Origin: an uncultured Clostridia bacterium
GTDB taxonomy: Bacteria; Bacillota; Clostridia; Christensenellales; Aristaeellaceae
Direction of reading: 5' to 3'
Length of the DNA: 64,000 nt
Assembly: GCA_946542235.1 (NCBI GenBank)
Contig: CAMNKK010000003.1
Coordinates: 1 to 64,000 of the forward strand
Below, piece by piece: positions 25,357 through 40,708 of this stretch (its first letter is position 1; every line of letters begins with the position of its first letter). Under the pieces are notes generated by a model. The model was not told the DNA's origin. It did not search any database and worked only from the letters and a program-made list of their open reading frames with translations. The translations under genes were made by a program, and so were the position numbers.

Positions 25357-27149
25357 GCCGGCTCACCTCCTTCCGGCCCGGATTCCCCCTGCTCCTTCGC
25401 CAGCTGGGCCTCCAGCTGCTGCTTGTCATAGATGGAGCGGTACAGGCCTCCCGCCTTCATCAGCTCCTCATGGGTTCCGTACTCCGCGGTCCGCCCGTCC
25501 TCCAGCACCAGAATGTGATCCGCGTGCTGAATGGTGGAAATCCGGTGGGCAATAATCAGCGTGGTCCTGTTCCGGCGCAGCTCCTGCAGCCGGGACAGGA
25601 TCCGTTCCTCCGTGTCCGTATCCACGGCGCTGAGAGAATCGTCCAGAATCAGCACCGGCGCGTCCTTCATCAGCGCCCGGGCGATGGAAATCCGCTGCTT
25701 CTGGCCGCCGGAAATCGTGACGCCCCGTTCCCCCAGCAGGGTCTGGTACTGGTTCGGAAATTCCATGATATTGTCATGCACATCCGCCGCTTCGGCCGCC
25801 GCCATGATCTCCTCCCGGGAAGCCTGCTGCACGCCGAAGGCAATATTGTTTTCAATGGTATCGCTGAACAGGAAGGAATCCTGGGGAACGCAGGCCAGAT
25901 CCCGGTGAAGGACATGCAGGGGGATCTCCCGCAGGGGGTGTCCGTCCATCCGGATCATATCCGGATCCTCCGTATCCCACAGCCTTTCCAGCAGATTCAC
26001 CAGGGTTGTCTTGCCGCATCCCGTGCGCCCGATCACCGCCAGGGTTTCCCCGGGGCGCACCCGCAGGGAGATTCCCTGCAGCGCCGGGTGATCTTCCGCT
26101 GACCCCGGATACCGGAAGGTCAGATCCCTCAGTTCAATCTCTCCCCGCAGCGACGTAATGGAGGGATCTCCCTCCTCCCGGATTTCCGGCTTTTCATCCA
26201 GGATCGTCCGGATCCGGCGCAGGGAAGCCAGGCCCTGGCTCAGGTTGGAAACGCTCTCTCCCACGGCAATCATGGGCCACACCAGCATGGTCACATAGCT
26301 GTTGAAGGCCACAAACTGGCCGATGGTAATCTCTCCGTAAATCGCCATCCGCCCGCCGAAAACCAGGGTCAGCAGCAGGCTGATTCCGATGACCAGGTCC
26401 AGGAGCGGCAGCACCAGGGCCATCAGCCGGACCACCGCCAGATTCTTTTCCCGGCTGTTGGCGTTCGCCCGGGCAAAGGCCGCCAGCTCCTTCCGTTCCT
26501 GCACGAAAGCCTTGATGACCCGGATGCCGGAAATCGCTTCCTGCGTCTGGTCCGTCAGGGCGGAAAAGGCTTCCTGCCTGGCCAGGAACCTGCGGTGCAT
26601 GGCCTTCCCGAACCAGATGTCCCCGAAGATGATCAGAATCAGCGGAATGACCGCGATCATGGTCAGCCGGAAGCTGACAAACCGGATCATGCTGATCAGG
26701 ACCAGAACCAGCATGACCGTCGCGTCAAAGGTGGAAATCACCGTCATGCCCATGAGCCCCCGGACGGCGCCCAGGTCGTTGGTGAAGTGCGCCATCAGGT
26801 CCCCTGTCTTGTGCTCGTTGTACCAGGACATGGAAAGGGTTTCCAGATGGGCAAACAGCTCTCCCCGCAGGTCCCGCTCCACCAGCCTTGCCGCCCCGAA
26901 AAGGCATACCCGCCAGCCGAACCGGCCCAGCATGATCAGCGATCCCATCCCCAGCAGCCGCAGCACGATATTCCACACGCCGCTCATATCCAGCCTGCCC
27001 GCCGCCAGCCCGTCCGTCAGCTCCCCGGACAGCAGCGGAACGTTCGCATTGATCTGATCCACCGCAAACAGGGCGATCAGCCCCAGCACATACCGCCACC
27101 AGTATTTCCTGACATAGCGTCCCGCCAGCTTCAGTTCTTTTCTCATCAT
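25353..27149 (-). CDS. ABC exporter half-transporter, degenerate ATP site partner
   Basis: This is the first gene of the exporter pair, 598 residues, with six expected membrane segments and a C-terminal ATPase. Walker A is GRTGCGKTT, the signature is ISGGQKQRISIARAL and Walker B is LILDDSLSAVD, where Asp stands in for the catalytic Glu. That substitution is the mark of the non-hydrolysing half in heterodimeric exporters. The ATG at 27149 touches its GGGAGGA ribosome-binding site; the next in-frame ATG at 27146 may be the real start. A strong promoter is at 27194-27222. Confidence 0.9.
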   Translation of the reverse strand: MMRKELKLAGRYVRKYWWRYVLGLIALFAVDQINANVPLLSGELTDGLAAGRLDMSGVWNIVLRLLGMGSLIMLGRFGWRVCLFGAARLVERDLRGELFAHLETLSMSWYNEHKTGDLMAHFTNDLGAVRGLMGMTVISTFDATVMLVLVLISMIRFVSFRLTMIAVIPLILIIFGDIWFGKAMHRRFLARQEAFSALTDQTQEAISGIRVIKAFVQERKELAAFARANANSREKNLAVVRLMALVLPLLDLVIGISLLLTLVFGGRMAIYGEITIGQFVAFNSYVTMLVWPMIAVGESVSNLSQGLASLRRIRTILDEKPEIREEGDPSITSLRGEIELRDLTFRYPGSAEDHPALQGISLRVRPGETLAVIGRTGCGKTTLVNLLERLWDTEDPDMIRMDGHPLREIPLHVLHRDLACVPQDSFLFSDTIENNIAFGVQQASREEIMAAAEAADVHDNIMEFPNQYQTLLGERGVTISGGQKQRISIARALMKDAPVLILDDSLSAVDTDTEERILSRLQELRRNRTTLIIAHRISTIQHADHILVLEDGRTAEYGTHEELMKAGGLYRSIYDKQQLEAQLAKEQGESGPEGGEPA

Positions 27150-27193
27150 TCCTCCCGGAAGTACCGCTCATTTCTGATTCCGAACGAGAAAGA

Positions 27194-27222
27194 AGTCTAT
27201 CGGGAACACCCGGAAAAGTCAA
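27194..27222 (-). promoter_or_regulatory. Sigma-A promoter for the exporter pair
   Basis: On the minus strand TTGACT (27222-27217), 17 bases and TAGACT (27199-27194) precede the exporter genes by about 45 bases. Confidence 0.75.
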
Positions 27223-27254
27223 TAGAAAACCGGCTTTCGGCGCAAAACTTCTTC

Positions 27255-27282
27255 TTGCTTTTTCAGCGCGTTATGCTATGCT
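27255..27282 (+). promoter_or_regulatory. Probable promoter for the GH5 gene
   Basis: TTGCTT (27255-27260), 16 bases and TATGCT (27277-27282) lie about 40 bases before the GH5 start. It is back to back with the exporter promoter. Confidence 0.5.
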
Positions 27283-27323
27283 TTTCAAAAACGGATCCCT
27301 CCCGGGATCGGAAGGAACGGAAC

Positions 27324-28271
27324 ATGCTGAAGGGGCTTGCTTTTGAAAGGGGAATCAACCTGGGCGGCTGGATGAGCCAGTGCGACTATTCAGAGGACCG
27401 GCTGAACCATTTCATCACGGAGGAGGATATCGCCCGCATCGCCTCCTGGGGGCTGGATCACGTGCGCCTGCCCGTGGACTACAATGTGCTGGAGACGGAG
27501 GACGGCTCCGAATACCGGGCGGACGGCTTTGCGCGGATCAGCCGGGCTTACGGCTGGTGCCGGGCCCATGGGCTGAACCTGGTGATCGACCTGCACAAAA
27601 CCGCCGGCTTCTCCTTTGACGCCGGAGAACAGGAAACCGGTTTTTTTGAGAGCGCCTCCTGCCAGGAACGGTTTTACCGCCTCTGGGAACAGATCGCGGC
27701 CCGCTGCGGGGAAAGCCCGGAGCATGTGGCCTTCGAACTGCTCAATGAGGTCACGGACCCTGCTTTCATCGGCGCCTGGAACCGGATCGCCCGTACCTGC
27801 ATCCGGCGGATCCGCGCCATCTGCCCCCGCCATCTGATCCTGGTGGGCAGCTATCACAACAACAGCGCCGCGGCGGTGCCCGCCCTGGATCCGCCCTTGG
27901 ACGACCGGGTGATCTACAACTTCCACTGCTATGAGCCCCTGGCTTTTACCCATCAGGGAGCCCACTGGGTGCCGCAGCTGGACCGGGATCGGCGGATCTC
28001 CTTTGAGGAAGCCGGGATTCCGGAGGATTATTTCGACCGGCTGTTCGCTCCGGCCCTGGAGGCTGCCCGGAAGAACGGGACGGAGCTCTACTGCGGCGAA
28101 TACGGCGTCATCGATCAGGCCGAGCCGGAATCCGCCGTAAAGTGGTTCCGTCTGATTCACGCCGCCTTCGCCCGATACGGGATCGGCCACAGCATCTGGA
28201 GCTACCGGGAAATGGACTTCGGCCTGGCAGACGCCCGGATGGACGGCTATCGGGAGCAGATTCTGGAATAA
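27324..28271 (+). CDS. Glycoside hydrolase family 5 (cellulase-like) enzyme, no signal peptide
   Basis: This is a (beta/alpha)8-barrel retaining glycosidase. The acid/base Glu is Glu142 in FELLNE and the nucleophile is Glu259 in YCGEYG. GINLGGWMSQCD near the start and HVRLPVDYNVLE fit GH5. It begins at the ATG at 27324 behind GGAAGGAACGGAAC, giving 315 residues and no signal peptide, so it probably acts in the cytoplasm on imported oligosaccharides. It is followed by glgA, which has its own promoter. Whether it is an endoglucanase or an exo-acting member cannot be told. Confidence 0.87.
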   Translation: MLKGLAFERGINLGGWMSQCDYSEDRLNHFITEEDIARIASWGLDHVRLPVDYNVLETEDGSEYRADGFARISRAYGWCRAHGLNLVIDLHKTAGFSFDAGEQETGFFESASCQERFYRLWEQIAARCGESPEHVAFELLNEVTDPAFIGAWNRIARTCIRRIRAICPRHLILVGSYHNNSAAAVPALDPPLDDRVIYNFHCYEPLAFTHQGAHWVPQLDRDRRISFEEAGIPEDYFDRLFAPALEAARKNGTELYCGEYGVIDQAEPESAVKWFRLIHAAFARYGIGHSIWSYREMDFGLADARMDGYREQILE

Positions 28272-29891: not shown

Positions 29892-31907
29892 ATGCAGACA
29901 TCCTTTTCCTCCCCGCTGCCCCTGACGCAGGTTCATATTACGGACGCCTTCTGGAAACGGGAGATGGATCTGATCCGAAATACGGTGCTGCCCTACCAGT
30001 GGGCCGCGCTGAACGACCGGGTGGAAGGCGCTGTTCCCAGCTGGTGGATGCACAACATGCGGGCCGCGGCCCGGGTCGTTGCAGCCCGAAAGGCGGGGAA
30101 GGCGCTCCCTTCCCGCCAGCAGGTGCCGGGCATGGTTTCGGAAGGTCCTTCTCCCGATCAGGCGGACCCGGATTTCTTCTATGGCTGGGTCTTTCAGGAC
30201 AGCGACGGATACAAATGGATTGAAGCCGCCTCCTGCCAGCTGTCCGTCCTGCCGGACGAAGCCCTCCGGAGTCAGGTTCAGGAAGCGGTGGACGCGATCC
30301 GTGCCGCCCAGGAGGAAGACGGCTACCTGGATACCTTCTATACCATCACCGGCATCGAAAACGCCTTCACCAACCTGAAGGACCATCACGAGCTCTATTG
30401 CTTCGGGCATCTGGCGGAAGCCGCCGTTGCCTGGTGGCAGGCGACCGGAAACGACGACCTGCTCCAGGTGACCCGCCGCTTTGCCGCCTGTATCGCCCGG
30501 CGCTTCGGCCCGGGAAAGGAGCGGGGCTGCCCCGGCCATGAAATTGCGGAGATGGCCCTGTTCCGCCTCTATGAAGCAACGGGCGAGCAGGAATGGATGG
30601 ATCTGGCGCAGTTCTTTCTGGATGTGCGCGGAACGGATCCCAGCACCTTCGCCCTGGAAGAGAACGTCCGGCGGAAGCGTTCCGGTCAGCCGGAGCTTCC
30701 GGTCACCGCCGACCGATATGAATACTATCAGGCCCATCTTCCCGTCCGGCAGATGAAGGAAGCCACCGGCCACGCCGTCCGGCAGATGTATCTGTGCAGC
30801 GGCATGGCGGACTCTGCCCGGCTGCGGAAAGACGCCGCCCTTCGGGAAGCCTGCGAACGGCTCTGGCATTCCGCCGTTGCCGAAAAGATGTACGTAACCG
30901 GGGGCGTCGGCGCCACCCATGTGGGGGAAGCCTTCTCCCGTCCGTGGGATCTTCCTTCCGATACCGCCTATTCTGAAACCTGCGCCGCCATCGGCCTGGT
31001 TTTCTTCGCCCGCCGTATGCTGCAAATGCAGGCGAAAGGCGAATATGCCGACGTCATGGAGCGCGCCCTGTACAACACCGTCCTGTCCGGAATGGCGCTG
31101 GACGGAAAGAGCTTCTTCTATGTCAATCCCCTGGAGGTGGATCCTGCCGCCTGTGAAAAGGATACCCGCCTTTCCCACGTAAAGCCCGTCCGGCAGAAGT
31201 GGTTCGGCTGCGCCTGCTGCCCGCCCAATATCGCCCGGCTGCTTTCGTCCCTGGGCGCCTATCTTGTCACATGCCGGGAGGATACGATCTGTTTCCATCT
31301 TTATATCGACAGCGAAATCGAAGCTTCCCTCGCAAACAGTCCCCTTCGTCTCCGGCTTTCCGCCAATCTGCTGAAGGACGGAAAAGTTCAGCTGACGATC
31401 CTGTCCGGCAGCGGGGAAGGCACCCTTGCCTTCCGGATTCCGGAATGGTCCGGCGCCTGGCATTGCAGCGCGCCCGGAAAGGAAGCCCGGGAAGAGGAGG
31501 GTTATCTGTTCCTTCGGGGCCGCTGGCAGGAAGGGGATACCGTATCCCTTGATTTTTCCATGCCGGTGCGGGCGCTCACGGGACATCCCCTGATCCGGGA
31601 AACGGCCCATCAGGTCTGCTTCTCCCGGGGGCCGCTGGTCTACTGCGCGGAGGAAAAGGATAACGGTCCCCTGCTGCATCTGCTGCGGGCGCTTCCGGAG
31701 GCGGAAGCCCGGGTCGAGTGGCAGGAAATCGGAGGCGTTGATCTGCCCGTGCTTCGGATGGACGCCCTCCGCCAGGAGGTGACGGACGGAGCCCTTTACC
31801 GTCCTCTGGCCGCGCCCCGGGAATCCGGGGTTACCCTCCGCCTGATTCCCTATTTTGCCTGGGCCAACCGGGGAAAAGGCGAGATGCGGGTCTGGCTGTA
31901 CCGCTGA
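29892..31907 (+). CDS. GH127-family beta-L-arabinofuranosidase-like protein
   Basis: The family (formerly DUF1680) removes beta-L-arabinofuranose from plant glycans with a catalytic Cys. The residues known from HypBA1 are visible: Glu362 and Cys364 in YSETCAA, and Cys440, Cys442 and Cys443 in FGCACCPPN. The 671-residue length is usual. The ATG at 29892 follows CCGGAGGTATCCCG. No signal peptide is seen, so it acts inside the cell. A short hairpin follows the gene. The exact sugar specificity within the family is not certain. Confidence 0.9.
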   Translation: MQTSFSSPLPLTQVHITDAFWKREMDLIRNTVLPYQWAALNDRVEGAVPSWWMHNMRAAARVVAARKAGKALPSRQQVPGMVSEGPSPDQADPDFFYGWVFQDSDGYKWIEAASCQLSVLPDEALRSQVQEAVDAIRAAQEEDGYLDTFYTITGIENAFTNLKDHHELYCFGHLAEAAVAWWQATGNDDLLQVTRRFAACIARRFGPGKERGCPGHEIAEMALFRLYEATGEQEWMDLAQFFLDVRGTDPSTFALEENVRRKRSGQPELPVTADRYEYYQAHLPVRQMKEATGHAVRQMYLCSGMADSARLRKDAALREACERLWHSAVAEKMYVTGGVGATHVGEAFSRPWDLPSDTAYSETCAAIGLVFFARRMLQMQAKGEYADVMERALYNTVLSGMALDGKSFFYVNPLEVDPAACEKDTRLSHVKPVRQKWFGCACCPPNIARLLSSLGAYLVTCREDTICFHLYIDSEIEASLANSPLRLRLSANLLKDGKVQLTILSGSGEGTLAFRIPEWSGAWHCSAPGKEAREEEGYLFLRGRWQEGDTVSLDFSMPVRALTGHPLIRETAHQVCFSRGPLVYCAEEKDNGPLLHLLRALPEAEARVEWQEIGGVDLPVLRMDALRQEVTDGALYRPLAAPRESGVTLRLIPYFAWANRGKGEMRVWLYR

Positions 31908-32353: not shown

Positions 32354-34150
32354 TCAATCTCGCTGGAAATAATAATATAGGCCCCAGTCCTGGTCATTTG
32401 CCCAGGGATCATAAAAATGTGCCTGCTCCCCATTCACGCTTCTGGGATAAACCATCGCGCAGCTGGCGCTGCCATCCTCAAAAAACAGCGGAAGACTTCC
32501 CCGCAGGTTTTGTTCCGCCCGATCCAGCCAGGCTTTTTCTCCCGTGATTTGCCCATATCGCGCAAAGGCAATGCCGCTCAGGCTGCTCCAATAATGAGGA
32601 AAAGTATCCCCCAGCATCCGACGCTTGCCAAACCAGTAACCGTCCCAATGGCGAATCGCTACCTCGTTCAGGTGGTAATCCGGCTGCATTCCCTGGAAAA
32701 GGAGCAACAGGTTCATCTGTTCCTGGGTTGCCTCCAGCAGCTTCTGCTTTCCGCTGAGTTGATATCCCATCAGCAGCATATTCACCGCAGGAGCTACGAT
32801 GCTCTGCTCATAATCCACCTCGCTGGTCGGATAATGAATGCCGACTTCCGCAATCTTCTCCGCATGCCGGACAAAAAGCTCCCGTAATTCTTCCGCGCGA
32901 TCTTTCCTCCCCGCCTCGCGAAGCAGCGCCACCAGGTCCGTCATGGGAATTCCGATCGCGTAGAACTTATCTCCCCCCCACTGATAATAGCTTTCCATCA
33001 CATCGGCGGCCCGGTCAATCCAGACCGGTTCCCGGGTCAATCGATACATCTCCATAAAGAAGATCGCCGTCCAGGGTTCATTATACAGGCGATGTCTTTC
33101 CTCCGCGTACCCCGCATCGTCGTAAACCGTATGGGTGGATTCCTCATAGACTTCTCTCAGGATGAAATCCGCGTACCGACGCAGACTCCGGGATGCCTCC
33201 GAATCCTGATTGTGCTGCAGATAGATCGCCACGAGCGCGCCCATCCCCAGCCGCTCTCTGGCGCTGTTGTGATCCGGGATTTCGTGGCTGTAGCAAAGTT
33301 TTCCCGTCTCATTATCATAAATCAGATATGCCCCGTCCAGTCTGCTGTCCGAATCATTGCACTGCTGCTTCGTCACAATAAAACGCGCCCGCTGCTGAAG
33401 CAGTTTTTCCGGCGATGGCATAACTCTCCATGTCGCGTGCGTAGTCCTTCCATTGACCTGCCAGGTTCGGCTGACCTCGCCAATCCTGTCGGTATCCACT
33501 TCGCCGCCGGTCCATTTGATCTTTTCGCCTTGAAATGGTACCCACTGATCCGATGTAATATAAAGGGGGCCGAATTTTTCCTTCAGAATCCGTTCTCCGT
33601 CCGCCCGACCCTCGTAACGGAAAAGCCGCCACTGGATCACTTTGGTTTCTCCGGGAGAAAGTGAAAAGGATACCGGATGAAGCAGAAAGACGCCCCGGGT
33701 ATTGCTGACGCAGTGGCTCTCCGTCAGGCTTCGGTGAACGCTGTAACTTCCTATCGCTCCCTCTGTCAGCCAAAGCCCCAGATGCGGCGCCTGGCCGCCC
33801 ATGCGAAGTGCCAGAATCCACGCAACTTCCCCGCCGCACCAGATATGCGCATGGCAGCGCTGTGTCAGGCAGATATCCGCCGCCAGATAATTATCATTCA
33901 GGGAAACCTCGATTGCGACACTGCCCTCCGGGCATCGGATTTCTTCTTGCATCGTGTTGGTAAAGGTATAGGTCTCCTCCACGGTCTCATCGTCCAACAC
34001 ACGTCTTTCGGCGTCGCGGGCAATCCCTTCCGGCGCGGTCATGCTGCCCCAGGGATGACCTTCGCTGACCCAGTTCATACCCCAGGGGTCGTCCGCAAAA
34101 GCAATGCGGCGGAGCGTTCCCTTTTCTTCTTCCAGTATCCAGCGGTTCAT
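32354..34150 (-). CDS. Unrecognised intracellular enzyme of a sugar-uptake locus, probable alpha/alpha-barrel
   Basis: I do not recognise the family of this 598-residue protein. It has no signal peptide. The N-terminal 240 residues look like a beta-rich domain (WGSMTAPEGIARDAERRVLD, LTQRCHAHIWCGGEVAWILA). The C-terminal 350 residues contain repeated helical segments with aromatic and acidic residues (NEPWTAIFFMEMYRLTREP, YDPWANDQDWGLYYYFQRD), which suggests a six-hairpin (alpha/alpha)6 barrel as in many glycosidases and lyases. It is the last gene of the permease operon, 13 bp after the second permease. A role in cleaving the imported sugar is inferred. The ATG at 34150 follows GGGAGGAATTCG. 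Confidence 0.7.
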   Translation of the reverse strand: MNRWILEEEKGTLRRIAFADDPWGMNWVSEGHPWGSMTAPEGIARDAERRVLDDETVEETYTFTNTMQEEIRCPEGSVAIEVSLNDNYLAADICLTQRCHAHIWCGGEVAWILALRMGGQAPHLGLWLTEGAIGSYSVHRSLTESHCVSNTRGVFLLHPVSFSLSPGETKVIQWRLFRYEGRADGERILKEKFGPLYITSDQWVPFQGEKIKWTGGEVDTDRIGEVSRTWQVNGRTTHATWRVMPSPEKLLQQRARFIVTKQQCNDSDSRLDGAYLIYDNETGKLCYSHEIPDHNSARERLGMGALVAIYLQHNQDSEASRSLRRYADFILREVYEESTHTVYDDAGYAEERHRLYNEPWTAIFFMEMYRLTREPVWIDRAADVMESYYQWGGDKFYAIGIPMTDLVALLREAGRKDRAEELRELFVRHAEKIAEVGIHYPTSEVDYEQSIVAPAVNMLLMGYQLSGKQKLLEATQEQMNLLLLFQGMQPDYHLNEVAIRHWDGYWFGKRRMLGDTFPHYWSSLSGIAFARYGQITGEKAWLDRAEQNLRGSLPLFFEDGSASCAMVYPRSVNGEQAHFYDPWANDQDWGLYYYFQRD

Positions 34151-34163
34151 CGAATTCCTCCCG

Positions 34164-35051
34164 TCATTCCTTCACGGATCCGATCATAATTCCTGTTACA
34201 AAATACTTCTGAATAAATGGATAAACCACCAGCATGGGGATGATGGTAATAAAGACTTTCGCTGCGTTCAGGGATTTATTGGAAAGCTGGTTCATCTTAA
34301 TCATCTGCTCCGTGGTCAGGTTCACGCCCATGGGAATGCTGACAACAATCTGACGGATATAGGTCTGTAAAGGATAGTGCGATTCCGTGTTGGACAGAAC
34401 CAGTCCCTGGAAATACTCATTCCAGTAGTAGACGCTGACAAACAGCGTAATCGTGGCGATCACGGATTTGGAGCAGGGTACAACGATCTGGAAAAGAGTC
34501 CGCCATTTTCCCGCGCCGTCCACAATCGCGGCTTCCTCCACATCCCTGGGAAAATTCCGGAAAAAGTTCATCATCAGAATTACATTGAACACCGGAAGGC
34601 TGCAGCTGAGAATCAGACCGGCCATATTGTCAATCATCCCATAGTTTTTCATGCACATATACCAGGGGATGGTTCCGCCATTAAATAGCATGCAGAAAAC
34701 CACGATCCACATGAATACATTTCTGCCGTGAAACTCCCGCTGACTGCGCGACAGCGGATACGCGATCATGATGACGATGAGCAGCGTCAGCGGCGTACCC
34801 AGGAAAACCCGCTCCACAGAAATCAGAAAGGAATTAAAGAACGCCTGATCCTTGATGATCTCCCCATAAGCAGACGTCGTAAACCCAATAGGATAGAAAG
34901 TGACCCAGCCCGCGTTTGTCGCCGCCTTGTCCGAGAAGGAAAGGCAGAAAGTATACCAGATTGGATACAGGCAGCTGAAGGCGAGCGCAATCAGCAGGAT
35001 GGTATTCACAACCAGAAAGACCCGCCGGGACAGAGATTTTGTTTCAATCAC
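34164..35051 (-). CDS. Carbohydrate ABC transporter permease, LplC/YtcP type
   Basis: This is one of two membrane permeases of a CUT1-like oligosaccharide importer. The coupling motif EEAAIVDGAGKWRTLFQIVVP is the EAA loop. I start it at the GTG at 35051 (VIETKSLSRR), which follows GAGGAGGCGAGCAAA; the longer frame overlaps the upstream gene and reads poorly. This gives 295 residues and six membrane segments. It ends YFVTGIMIGSVKE, typical of this subfamily. It lies 13 bp after the partner permease. No ATPase gene is in the locus, so a shared ATPase (MsmX-like) encoded elsewhere is expected. Confidence 0.92.
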   Translation of the reverse strand: MIETKSLSRRVFLVVNTILLIALAFSCLYPIWYTFCLSFSDKAATNAGWVTFYPIGFTTSAYGEIIKDQAFFNSFLISVERVFLGTPLTLLIVIMIAYPLSRSQREFHGRNVFMWIVVFCMLFNGGTIPWYMCMKNYGMIDNMAGLILSCSLPVFNVILMMNFFRNFPRDVEEAAIVDGAGKWRTLFQIVVPCSKSVIATITLFVSVYYWNEYFQGLVLSNTESHYPLQTYIRQIVVSIPMGVNLTTEQMIKMNQLSNKSLNAAKVFITIIPMLVVYPFIQKYFVTGIMIGSVKE

Positions 35052-35064
35052 TTTGCTCGCCTCC

Positions 35065-35979
35065 TCAGAAGATCGTGTAATCCGCGAACTTGTACGCCAG
35101 GGCATAGGAGATAACGATGAGCACAAAGCTGACCACTGATTTGAAGAGGCCTGCCGCAGTCGCCAGCGAGAATTGCAGTTTTGTCAAACCAATCCGGTAA
35201 ACCCAGGTATCCAGGATATCCACCGTGGAATAGACCATCGGATTATAGGTATTAAAAACCTGATCAAACCCCGCGTTCAGGATGTTTCCCAGCGCGAGCA
35301 CCGTCAGCAGCACGACCGTCGTGGACAGGCCCGGCAGCGTGATATGAAGCGTCTGCTTCCACCGGCCCGCGCCGTCAATCGCGGACGCCTCATACAGGGC
35401 GGGATTGATCCCCGTCAGCGCGGCCAGGTAGATCACCGCGTTGTAACCGAATTCCTTCCACACATCGGTCCAGATGATGAAGCCCCGAAAGAAACCCGCA
35501 TCGCTCAGAAATACCTTTTTTTCGTACCCGAACAGCCCTCCGATCAGGTTCACGATGCCGTCATAGCCAAAGATATTCGTCATCACGCTGGCCAGAATGA
35601 CCCACGACAGAAAGTGGGGAAGGTATACGATCGTCTGCACGGTTTTCTTAAACCGGATGCGGCGCACTTCATTCAACATCAGCGCAAAGGCCAGCGGGAC
35701 GATCATGTTCAGCACAATTTTCGCGAACGCGATGATGATCGTGTTCATAATCACGTTCTGTGCGTCCTTCATGGAGAAAAGATATTCAAAATTTTCCCAA
35801 CCGACGAACTTGGAGCCAAAGATTCCCCGCCTCGGCTTGAAATCCTGAAAAGCCATCAGAATTCCCGCCATAGGCACAATGGAAAAAAAGAACAGCCAAA
35901 GCATACCGGGCGCGCACATCAGGTAGTACGCCGCCTGATCTTTGATTCGAACCGCCAGATTCTTCTTACTCCCTTTCAT
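35065..35979 (-). CDS. Carbohydrate ABC transporter permease, LplB type
   Basis: This is the partner permease of the importer. The start is the ATG at 35979 (MKGSKKNLAVRIKDQ) behind GGAGGGGAGCGC; the longer frame overlaps the binding-protein gene. The 304 residues hold six membrane segments. The EAA loop reads YEASAIDGAGRWKQTLHITL. Hallmarks of the LplB group include FQDFKPRRGIFGSKFVGWEN and the ending YKFADYTIF. It sits between the binding protein and the second permease in one operon. Confidence 0.93.
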   Translation of the reverse strand: MKGSKKNLAVRIKDQAAYYLMCAPGMLWLFFFSIVPMAGILMAFQDFKPRRGIFGSKFVGWENFEYLFSMKDAQNVIMNTIIIAFAKIVLNMIVPLAFALMLNEVRRIRFKKTVQTIVYLPHFLSWVILASVMTNIFGYDGIVNLIGGLFGYEKKVFLSDAGFFRGFIIWTDVWKEFGYNAVIYLAALTGINPALYEASAIDGAGRWKQTLHITLPGLSTTVVLLTVLALGNILNAGFDQVFNTYNPMVYSTVDILDTWVYRIGLTKLQFSLATAAGLFKSVVSFVLIVISYALAYKFADYTIF

Positions 35980-36106
35980 GCGCTCCCCTCCGCTGCAAAA
36001 ATTCATTCCGCGCGATGAATGCGTTCTGCCTTCGCTTTTCATCGTGCGGTTTGAAAAGATTGTCGCTGCGGTTTCCCGCAGCGACATCCTGTAAAACCCG
36101 AATTCC

Positions 36107-37771
36107 TTACTTGGTGGCGTCATATTCTTCCTGCACGCTCTGCAGAATCTTGTCGCCGCCTTCCGCCATCCACTGTTCCGCGAAGGAATCGAAGGCGGAA
36201 ATATCTCTCTTGCCCGTAATGATGGACCTAATCACGCTGCCCTCCAGCGCTTCCAGGTTTGCCCAGTACCGATCGATCGTCTCGTTCGTCGTGTAGGTCA
36301 CAGAATAGACAGGGTTATTCAGCTCAACAGTTGCATACGGCCGATCACCAATCAACAGCGCGTACTGACGCTGGAAATTGGATTCCGTTTCCGGGGTATA
36401 GAGGAAGTCGGACCGATGAAGCGTCTCGCCCTGCTTATATCCGGGAACCATGCTGCGCACAACCGCTGTATCCGCCGCCAGCAGCTTGTAGTTGGGTTCG
36501 CTCTGCCAGTCTTCGGGCTCGGTTTCGCCGTTCAGTACGCTGATCTCCGCCTTATAGGTATATTCGCATTCATCCATGGCCGCCGTCACATTGCGCAGCG
36601 GATACCACTCAATGTCCTCCGCGGTCTCATTCTGGAACACGGATTCATTGGCCACCAGCACATTGTTCATGATCACAATCGCCTGAGCCACCTCCTCGGA
36701 CACTCCGCTGTTGACCAGGGTATAGGAGGTTCCCAGCGTCTTCATCTTCGCGTTCCAGATGCCGTCATCCGTAAAGAGCGGATAAGCCTGCCAGTCCACG
36801 GTCTCGCTGTTCTTGAAGGAATCTCCGTTGCCGTAGCCCAGCGCCCACCAGGGTCCGCAGAAAAAGCCGCACTCATTCGCGTTCACGATATCCTGAGAGT
36901 AATCCCGGGTCGCGAATTCCGGATCGATCAGGCCTTCCGCGTACCACTGCGCCAGCGTTTCCAGCGCCGTCCGCGTTTCCGCGGAAAGCGTGCCATACTG
37001 CACTTTTCCTTCCTCATCCAGCACAAAATATCCCGGATAAGCGTTCATCGCCGCAAAGATCGCGTCAAAACCAAAAGAGAAATTGGAGTGGAGGAAATCC
37101 GCGTACACCCGGCCGTCCTTCTGCGCACCCAGGATCGGGATGGTCCGATCCCCTGCGGGTTTCGCGTCACGAATGGCCGCCGCCGCGTCGTGCAGTTCCT
37201 GCACGGTGGTCGGCACCGCGATGCCCAGATCGTCCAGCCAGTTCTGCTGCATCATCAGCACCAGCACGCCGTCTGCCGCCACGGAAATGTTCGGCAGCGC
37301 CAGCATCTTTCCGCCATAGGTAACCAGTTCCGCCGCTTTGCCCGCGGTGGTCGCGTGAATCGCTTTCACCTGCTCAGAAGCGTACTGATCAAACACTTCT
37401 GTCAGATCATAGAGCATATCGTCCTCTGCCGCGGCGGTAAAGTAAGTTCTGTCACTCACCACCATGGCGTCCGGCAGGCTGTCGGAAGCGATTGTCAACG
37501 CCACTTTCTGATTGAAATCGTCTCCGGACGCTGCCGTCCAGTCCACGACCACCTTGATGTTGTAATTGTCCAGCAGGTAACGCGTGTAATAGTTGTTGTC
37601 CGCCGTGTCTCCATCTTCCAGGGTTACATCCGTCGGCTCTACCGCCATGCCGATATGGACTTCCACCACATGGTCGAATTTCTGGAAGGCCAGATCCTCA
37701 TCCGCGGCAGCCGCGCCGCACAGCCCGAGCAGGAGCGCAGCAGTCAGAAGTAGAGAAAGGAACTTTTTCAT
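36107..37771 (-). CDS. Extracellular sugar-binding protein of the importer
   Basis: This is a large solute-binding protein (554 residues) of the LplA type that goes with LplB/LplC permeases. It has a signal peptide (MKKFLSLLLTAALLLGLCGA); a Cys is present but its -1 residue is Leu, so lipid attachment is uncertain. GFDAIFAAMNAYPGYFVLDE and RDYSQDIVNANECGFF are typical of the group. The ATG at 37771 follows AAAGGAGGG. It heads the permease operon and lies 139 bp downstream of the two-component genes, which probably control it. Confidence 0.92.
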   Translation of the reverse strand: MKKFLSLLLTAALLLGLCGAAAADEDLAFQKFDHVVEVHIGMAVEPTDVTLEDGDTADNNYYTRYLLDNYNIKVVVDWTAASGDDFNQKVALTIASDSLPDAMVVSDRTYFTAAAEDDMLYDLTEVFDQYASEQVKAIHATTAGKAAELVTYGGKMLALPNISVAADGVLVLMMQQNWLDDLGIAVPTTVQELHDAAAAIRDAKPAGDRTIPILGAQKDGRVYADFLHSNFSFGFDAIFAAMNAYPGYFVLDEEGKVQYGTLSAETRTALETLAQWYAEGLIDPEFATRDYSQDIVNANECGFFCGPWWALGYGNGDSFKNSETVDWQAYPLFTDDGIWNAKMKTLGTSYTLVNSGVSEEVAQAIVIMNNVLVANESVFQNETAEDIEWYPLRNVTAAMDECEYTYKAEISVLNGETEPEDWQSEPNYKLLAADTAVVRSMVPGYKQGETLHRSDFLYTPETESNFQRQYALLIGDRPYATVELNNPVYSVTYTTNETIDRYWANLEALEGSVIRSIITGKRDISAFDSFAEQWMAEGGDKILQSVQEEYDATK

Positions 37772-37910: not shown

Positions 37911-38939
37911 TCAGTTCTCCTCGGTCTGAGATGCCTCAAACGCCCTCCTGAAATCCTTCGGCGTCTCCTTCCTGACTTCCTGAAACATCTTTTTATAATG
38001 CTGGTAGCTGTCGTATCCAACCCTGAGCGCGATCTCAGTCAGCGAAAGCTCCCCCTGCATGATCAGTTTCATGCTTTCGTAGATTCTTTTCCGGCGGGTA
38101 AACTCATTGGGCGTAATTCCAAAGTACCGGCTGAAGCAGCTGCTCAGGTAGCTTCTGCTCAGTCCGGATTCATCCGCAACTTCCTGAAGGAGAAACGATT
38201 CCTGATAGGATTTGTTGATCAGATCCGCCGCGACAATCAGTCTGGCTTCTGTGGTATTGGGGTCGCCATTTCCAGCCCTCTCCGTAATGGATTTTCGGCA
38301 TTCTTTCAGATATAGAATGACATCCTGCGCAGACCGAACCAGTCCAACCTCCGGCACCGCGTAGTGATCGTTAATTTCCAGGCGCATCAGCGCTTCCCTT
38401 AGCACCTTCTCCAATTGCGGAGCCGCATAATTCTTTTCCTCCAGCATTTTTTCCGTTTCCCACAGATACAGATCATCGCAAATCCAAAGCGGACTGGCCA
38501 GGCGCTCCGCGATCTCCTGCGCATTGTCCTTTCCCGTTTCCATCTCCGGCGCGTACATCCGCTGCTGCACAGTTTCCGAAATGCGGGACATCAGCGAATC
38601 CAGATCCTCTTCTTCCAGCTTCAGTTTGGAAATATAATCGATGACCCCCTGCCGAAGCGCTTCCTGGATATAGGAAAAATCCTCATGGAATGTCATGACC
38701 ACATATTGAATCTGCGGATGTTTTTCCCTGCATTTCTGAATGAACGTGAGACCATCCATGATAGGCATCGCCAGATCCAGCATCACCAAGTCCACCGCGT
38801 GATCCTCCAGAAAGCGAAGTCCTTCTCTTCCATTATATGCCTCTCCAACCACCTGCATCTGGTATTTTTCCCAGGGAAGCATCGCCTTGATCCCGGAGAG
38901 AGACAGCCTGTCGTCGTCAATGATGAGTACCCTGATCAT
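37911..38939 (-). CDS. YesN-like response regulator with AraC-type DNA-binding domain
   Basis: This is the transcriptional half of a carbohydrate two-component system. The receiver domain has DDD at 8-10, the phosphorylated Asp55 in VMLDLAMP, and the conserved Lys in SKLKLEEEDL. A middle linker follows to about residue 235. Two AraC helix-turn-helix motifs end the protein (YLSSCFSRYFGITPNEFTRR and ALRVGYDSYQHYKKMFQEVR). It is 342 residues and overlaps the kinase gene by 23 bases. The ATG at 38939 follows GGAAGGAGAG. It is expected to activate the divergent-function operon just downstream. Confidence 0.93.
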   Translation of the reverse strand: MIRVLIIDDDRLSLSGIKAMLPWEKYQMQVVGEAYNGREGLRFLEDHAVDLVMLDLAMPIMDGLTFIQKCREKHPQIQYVVMTFHEDFSYIQEALRQGVIDYISKLKLEEEDLDSLMSRISETVQQRMYAPEMETGKDNAQEIAERLASPLWICDDLYLWETEKMLEEKNYAAPQLEKVLREALMRLEINDHYAVPEVGLVRSAQDVILYLKECRKSITERAGNGDPNTTEARLIVAADLINKSYQESFLLQEVADESGLSRSYLSSCFSRYFGITPNEFTRRKRIYESMKLIMQGELSLTEIALRVGYDSYQHYKKMFQEVRKETPKDFRRAFEASQTEEN

Positions 38940-40650
38940 GAAAACTCTCCTTCCACATGTACAGCCTGATGGTTGCCCTTGTTCCCCCCTCGGGCCTGTT
39001 TTCCAGTTTCAGCAAAGCCGCATTCCCATAGAACTGCCGGAGCATGCTGACCGTGTATCTCAGGCCTATCCCGGCATGCTCCTGAATCTGTTCCATGGTC
39101 TGGAGCATCCGCAGTCTTTCAGGCTCAATTCCACATCCATCGTCTTCAATGGTGAGAATGGTTCCACTGTCATCCGGATGAACAGAGATACGCAGATGAC
39201 CGTCCGTATCCATTCCGTGGCTGACCGCGTTTTCCACCACAGGCTGAAGAAAAAGTCTGGGTGTCGGGGAATCCAAGTAGGATCCCTCCTCAATCTGATA
39301 ATCCACGGAAAAACTGTGCTTCATCTGTTCCAGAGCCAGATAATCCCGGATCACTTCCAGCTCCCGGCGCAGCGTCGGCCCCTTTCCGCTTCTGCCCAAC
39401 GAGTAGTTCAGCAGTTCCATCAGGTGATGGGTGTATTCGCTGATCTCCTTTTGATGATTCAGCCGCGCCAGCCAGTATAACGAATTCAGCGAATTCATCA
39501 GAAAGTGGGGATTGATCTGATAGTACAGTCTCTCCAGCTCCAGCTTCGCCTTCTGTTCTTCCTGTCTCTTGACCTCTTCGATCAGCTGGCGGGCGTATTC
39601 CAGCAGGTTTTCGAAACGTTCCATCAGGTTGTCGTATTCCATCATGCCCGTGCGCTGTGAAGTCATCCGCAGCTCCGGTCTGCTGACCGCGTTTACAGCG
39701 TCCACGATCATCTGAAGCTTTTGAAGAATCAGCCGGTTGAACAGATAGACCGCTGCAGCCACAAGAATCAGCGCGATCAGCACGCCTGTGATCAAATAAT
39801 CAAACCAATGAAGTACATGCTGATAAAAGACGCTGCGAGGAATCGCAAGCACATAGTAAAAACCGGAGGCGGACTGATTTTTACACCAGACCATCTCATT
39901 GGACATTCGGAATCCGTCTTCTCCGGAAAAGCAAATCTTTCCCGCCATTTCCTTGAGACAGGTTGGATTGCTGCAATAGCAGATTTCTTCCTCCGGCGTC
40001 AGTTGAAACAGCATGTAACCGTTCGTTTCCTCTGCGTTAACTTCCTCAAGCATTTCCGGAACGGATGTACGGGCCTCCACATAGATAATTAAATCCAGAT
40101 CAGATGCAAAAGTATCCGGCCAGGCCACGGAGAGGACGTCATGATTGCTGAATCTGGACTGAGATTCATGCACCGCGTGAAAGGTGACGCTCTTGGTCTT
40201 TCGGACCGTCCGAAGCCCCTCCGTGGGGCTGAAGGAATCCCTAGGCAGGAAGGTTGTCGCAAAAATGCTGCTGTTCTCCGGCATATAGTAAGTTGCGAGC
40301 TCCACCTGTTTTCCAATGGCGGTTACGGTTTGCAGATTGCGGATCATCGCTCTCTTTGCTTCCCCGAGATCATACATATCCTCGGATCGCAGGATCTCAT
40401 TCACCTGTTTTCCAACTACGCCGTGGGAAGTCATATGCTGGGAAATCTGCAGTACATGCTGGTATTCCTCGTCCATTTGGTGCGCAATCATGCGGGTGGA
40501 TGATTCCATATACGACTTTCCACGATTTTCAATCGTTGTCTGAATCATCTGGTACGAAAAGAACGAAAGCACAATCAGGATACTGAACACCAGCAAAATA
40601 ATGATCAGAATATATCGTCCGCGGACCGTTCGAATTGGCTGTTTTCTCAT
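38917..40650 (-). CDS. YesM-like sensor histidine kinase
   Basis: This membrane kinase pairs with the AraC-type regulator. It has two membrane segments, near 14-35 and 290-310, enclosing an extracellular sensor of about 250 residues. The phosphoacceptor region is INPHFLMNSLNSLYWLARL, and the ATP-binding N box is QPVVENAVSHGM, the His_kinase/HATPase layout of the LytS/YesM group. I start it at the ATG at 40650, seven bases from GGAGAGGA; a TTG two codons earlier is too close. A strong promoter precedes it. The sensed compound is presumably the transported sugar. Confidence 0.92.
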   Translation of the reverse strand: MRKQPIRTVRGRYILIIILLVFSILIVLSFFSYQMIQTTIENRGKSYMESSTRMIAHQMDEEYQHVLQISQHMTSHGVVGKQVNEILRSEDMYDLGEAKRAMIRNLQTVTAIGKQVELATYYMPENSSIFATTFLPRDSFSPTEGLRTVRKTKSVTFHAVHESQSRFSNHDVLSVAWPDTFASDLDLIIYVEARTSVPEMLEEVNAEETNGYMLFQLTPEEEICYCSNPTCLKEMAGKICFSGEDGFRMSNEMVWCKNQSASGFYYVLAIPRSVFYQHVLHWFDYLITGVLIALILVAAAVYLFNRLILQKLQMIVDAVNAVSRPELRMTSQRTGMMEYDNLMERFENLLEYARQLIEEVKRQEEQKAKLELERLYYQINPHFLMNSLNSLYWLARLNHQKEISEYTHHLMELLNYSLGRSGKGPTLRRELEVIRDYLALEQMKHSFSVDYQIEEGSYLDSPTPRLFLQPVVENAVSHGMDTDGHLRISVHPDDSGTILTIEDDGCGIEPERLRMLQTMEQIQEHAGIGLRYTVSMLRQFYGNAALLKLENRPEGGTRATIRLYMWKESFHDQGTHH

Positions 40651-40708
40651 CTGCAATTCCTCTCCGTATGGAAATTAACGCAAACTTCCTGTTCGAAAAA
40701 TCGCTGTT

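Follow-up and report, generated by a model that had tools for sequence, protein, structure and literature searches.

A PL27-family lyase encoded with an LplABC-type importer and a two-component system in an uncultured Clostridia bacterium

Results

Gene content of the lyase locus

The window, a 64,000-nucleotide stretch of contig CAMNKK010000003.1 from an uncultured Clostridia bacterium, carries a six-gene run on the minus strand, composed of a sensor kinase, a response regulator, an LplA-type binding protein, two LplBC-type permeases, and a lyase that closes the run. A GH127 gene lies nearby on the plus strand. Identities below refer to two rumen-type metagenome-assembled genomes (MAGs), L002 and L003.

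29892..31907, plus strand: GH127 beta-L-arabinofuranosidase-like enzyme; Pfam GH127 domains; closest PDB entry 4qjy (E=1.3e-174)
32354..34150, minus strand: PL27-family lyase, predicted L-Rha-alpha-1,4-D-GlcA lyase; 598 aa; assigned by phmmer, profile, Foldseek, and AF2
34164..35126, minus strand: LplC-type ABC sugar permease; Pfam BPD_transp_1; 90-92% identical in L002/L003, same order
35065..36123, minus strand: LplB-type ABC sugar permease; Pfam BPD_transp_1; 82-88% identical in L002/L003
36107..37771, minus strand: LplA-type solute-binding protein; Pfam SBP_bac_1; 91% identical in L002/L003
37911..38939, minus strand: response regulator with AraC-type DNA-binding domain; Pfam Response_reg and HTH_18/HTH_AraC; 73-76% identical in L002/L003
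38917..40656, minus strand: sensor histidine kinase; Pfam PF06580 His_kinase and PF02518 HATPase_c; 70% identical in L002/L003

The 598-residue protein described in an earlier note on this DNA is encoded by an intact ORF (34150..32354), which starts at ATG and spans 598 codons with internal stops absent. The plus strand across 32354-34150 is broken by stops; that note had named no strand. No hydrophobic N-terminus or signal peptide is visible in the 598-aa sequence, which makes the protein probably cytoplasmic, in line with the intracellular location proposed earlier.

Adjacent ORFs of the run overlap or are separated by no more than about 140 bases, and the six genes likely form an operon. 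The LplABC-type importer and dedicated two-component control ascribed to the locus are both present, as a binding protein (37771-36107) with two permeases (36123-35065 and 35126-34164) and as a kinase-regulator pair (40656-38917 and 38939-37911). The importer genes are not accompanied by their own ATPase gene in the run; LplABC-type importers usually have none. The nearest solved relatives of the binding protein are AlgQ1/AlgQ2 and other family-1 binding proteins (phmmer 1y3n, E=6.7e-13). The listed permease ORF 34164..35126 starts at TTG, and its true start may be internal; the listed kinase ORF 38917..40656 also starts at TTG.

The GH127 ORF (29892..31907) is convergent with the lyase gene and is absent beside the lyase in L002, L003, and a third MAG, L004, which excludes it from the operon. 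A functional relationship to the lyase is possible. Against the NCBIfam aceric acid hydrolase model it scores 379 bits, far under the cut-off of 950. No GH105 gene adjoining the lyase gene was found at the locus. Also on the plus strand, the GH5 match of a GH5-family ORF (26595-28271) begins near residue 270, so the true start probably lies downstream of the listed GTG.

Assignment of the protein to PL27

A scan of the lyase against Pfam and NCBIfam returned no model above cut-off. The only Pfam hint in the HMM search was a sub-threshold match to GH76 (E=0.038, 13.9 bits versus a cut-off of 25.9). This absence of a model accounts for the earlier impression of an enzyme that fits no known glycoside hydrolase or lyase family. 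Solved structures gave a different answer: BACCELL_00875 (PDB 5no8/5nok), a characterised PL27 L-rhamnose-alpha-1,4-D-glucuronate lyase from Bacteroides cellulosilyticus (PMC8377490), is the single phmmer match (E=2e-127) and, with a profile built from 37 sequences, again the sole PDB match (E=7.9e-187). The two proteins share 41.6% identity over 543 aligned residues, and the homology is full-length, extending across the catalytic region. Among the alignable residues that are invariant in the clade, 64 of 76 are identical in BACCELL_00875, a count that excludes the invariant D21 and W27, which fall outside the alignment. The stretches RHWDG.WFGK and GDTFPHYW are common to both. Several residues that are fixed in the clade, as defined among the sampled Clostridia and Bacilli relatives, differ in BACCELL_00875 (query/BACCELL_00875: R298/A393, S137/E201, R140/E204, and Y505/H598).

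An AlphaFold2 model, computed from the window lyase and 36 relatives, reached a mean pLDDT of 92.4 and a pTM of 0.91. Residues 1-244 are strand-rich and paired helices extend from there to the C-terminus, bearing out the predicted beta-rich front and six-hairpin back half. PL27 enzymes combine an (alpha/alpha)6 barrel with a beta-sandwich (PMC8377490), and the model superimposes on this two-domain fold, with 5nok and 5no8 ranked top by Foldseek (TM-score 0.93 by query length) and the other entries listed reaching at most 0.39. The model shows two short low-confidence stretches, residues 144-147 and 502-505, the latter within the otherwise invariant RHWDGYWFGK segment, among the most invariant of the protein. 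Residues 502-505 may represent a mobile active-site loop.

The 598-aa protein is a recognisable PL27 member rather than the founder of a new enzyme family, a possibility ruled out by the full-length PDB match to BACCELL_00875. The suggestion of a new activity likewise gives way to this clear match to a characterised family. A GH76 identity is rejected by the Pfam score and by the poor fold match to the GH76 structure 6u4z (TM 0.27 by query length).

The remaining mechanistic alternative, an (alpha/alpha)6-superfamily hydrolase or phosphorylase working by a mechanism unrelated to PL27, would draw on the GH76 hint and on remote structural matches to GH94, GH116, and sugar epimerases. Those matches reach TM-scores of only 0.21-0.39 by query length versus 0.93 for PL27, and the sequence searches return PL27 only, making this alternative highly improbable.

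Relatives and conserved gene context

A scan of species genomes for the lyase yielded 265 confirmed stretches, the best 80 of which were kept for comparison. Within these 80, three rumen-type Clostridia MAGs stand at 73% identity and the remaining relatives at about 39-45%, the latter belonging to Lachnospiraceae, other Clostridia, Bacillus, Paenibacillus, and a few lactic-acid-bacteria records; relatives come mainly from gut and rumen Clostridia and from Bacilli. L002 and L003 carry all six genes in identical order; between these and the window, the binding protein is 91% identical, the lyase only 73%, and the kinase only 70%. At L004:8001-9797, a PL27 gene of 73% identity lacks the importer and two-component neighbours present in L002/L003.

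Sets of regulator, importer, lyase, and GH42 genes are present in several other Clostridia. PL27 and a GH42 beta-galactosidase share a locus with an LplABC-type importer and a divergent kinase-regulator pair in L051, L055, and L069. The GH42 assignment comes from a family scan of L054, carried over to these three loci by clustering and matching N-terminal sequence. GH127, GH43, and arabinofuranosidase genes lie near PL27 in single loci; the GH127 gene of Paenibacillus ihumii (L077) comes one gene after the lyase, and its product shares 46% identity with the window's GH127. A GH28 gene neighbours the PL27 relative in L076.

The lyase gene was not found in the 24 other same-genus genomes searched, several of which are incomplete, a distribution that suggests an accessory gene within the genus. 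A same-order genome holds a weak partial match (L082, G039:C5:29208-29627; 26% identity, residues 49-195, E=1.1e-8) within a 522-aa open frame that may encode a divergent relative.

Discussion

Proposed pathway and substrate

Family, fold, conserved residues, and gene order directly support a PL27 lyase set beside its own importer and regulators; from these we infer the substrate, uptake, regulation, and downstream steps. PL27 enzymes free rhamnose from gum arabic via beta-elimination (PMC8377490). Characterised members of the family take rhamnose off the glucuronic acid tips of plant arabinogalactan. A cytoplasmic PL27 lyase that couples sensing and import to beta-elimination of Rha-GlcA is, in our assessment, a well-supported and probable explanation of the whole locus. 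The kinase and AraC-type regulator would sense an arabinogalactan-derived sugar and switch the operon on, and the LplABC-type importer, energised by a shared ATPase encoded elsewhere, would take in rhamnose-capped fragments that contain glucuronate and might be the Rha-alpha-1,4-GlcA disaccharide. The intracellular lyase would then cut the Rha-GlcA bond by beta-elimination, yielding L-rhamnose and a 4,5-unsaturated glucuronate. From a disaccharide substrate, the unsaturated sugar would open unaided to give a KduI-type substrate; from a longer one, a cellular GH88/GH105 enzyme would take off the unsaturated residue. The window's own genome contains four GH88/105 matches, two KduI matches, and one match to the rhamnose mutarotase family RhaM, and the GH88/105 and KduI matches would fit the processing of unsaturated uronates. 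No match to a RhaA-family rhamnose isomerase was found in this genome, estimated to be 86% complete.

Judged by sequence and gene context, the enzyme most likely acts on imported arabinogalactan fragments at their Rha-alpha-1,4-GlcA ends, or perhaps on the free disaccharide. Of the plant or mucin glycan target proposed in the earlier note, the plant glycan is probable, and the novelty of the activity is not retained. Because several clade-fixed residues differ in BACCELL_00875, the exact substrate could differ: the protein would still be a PL27-family lyase acting by beta-elimination at a uronate, but its target would be a different oligosaccharide of the Rha-uronate or hexose-uronate type, such as one derived from a pectin fragment or from a bacterial exopolysaccharide, instead of arabinogalactan caps. 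The lack, in the query, of the N-terminal ~65 residues present in the BACCELL_00875 chain and the GH28 gene in L076 also point this way. The sharing of 64 of 76 alignable invariant residues, including both conserved stretches, argues against such a shift, and the nearby GH42 genes, with the single-locus GH127, GH43, and arabinofuranosidase genes, fit arabinogalactan. We regard a shifted substrate as unlikely and favour Rha-GlcA ends of arabinogalactan.

Comparison with known enzymes

BACCELL_00875 resembles the query in full-length homology (~42% identity) and two-domain fold. Its PDB chain is longer (694 versus 598 aa), and the query, unlike BACCELL_00875, has no visible signal peptide and lies beside an ABC importer and a two-component system. 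FoRham1, the L-Rha-alpha-1,4-GlcA lyase of Fusarium oxysporum, which we take to belong to PL42, is expected to catalyse the same reaction as the query. Its fold is a seven-bladed beta-propeller and its sequence is unrelated to PL27, at 3-5% identity (PMC8377490). The GH145 alpha-L-rhamnosidase BT3686 also targets the Rha-GlcA linkage of gum arabic (PMC8377490) but differs in being a hydrolase with a beta-propeller fold.

FoRham1 acts better on the free Rha-GlcA disaccharide, and its unsaturated product opens non-enzymatically (PMC8377490). By analogy, a similar disaccharide preference would explain why the lyase gene is accompanied by an importer but not by a GH105 gene. We tentatively raise the possibility, at present a doubtful one, that the PL27 clade of Clostridia and Bacilli forms a cytoplasmic branch dedicated to the imported disaccharide Rha-GlcA or another uronide. 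If true, this would constitute a scavenging route with dedicated uptake and sensing, in which the lyase needs no partner enzyme to produce rhamnose and a uronate that opens spontaneously.

The literature search on PL27 in Firmicutes returned nothing specific among the papers it covered. The protein represents, in Firmicutes, a probably cytoplasmic and ABC-coupled version of a lyase known in Bacteroides, which provides a concrete annotation for a gene, and its relatives, left blank by Pfam and NCBIfam. Conservation of the regulator, importer, and lyase genes as a set suggests a way for Gram-positive gut bacteria to import rhamnose-capped arabinogalactan fragments, perhaps released by other organisms.
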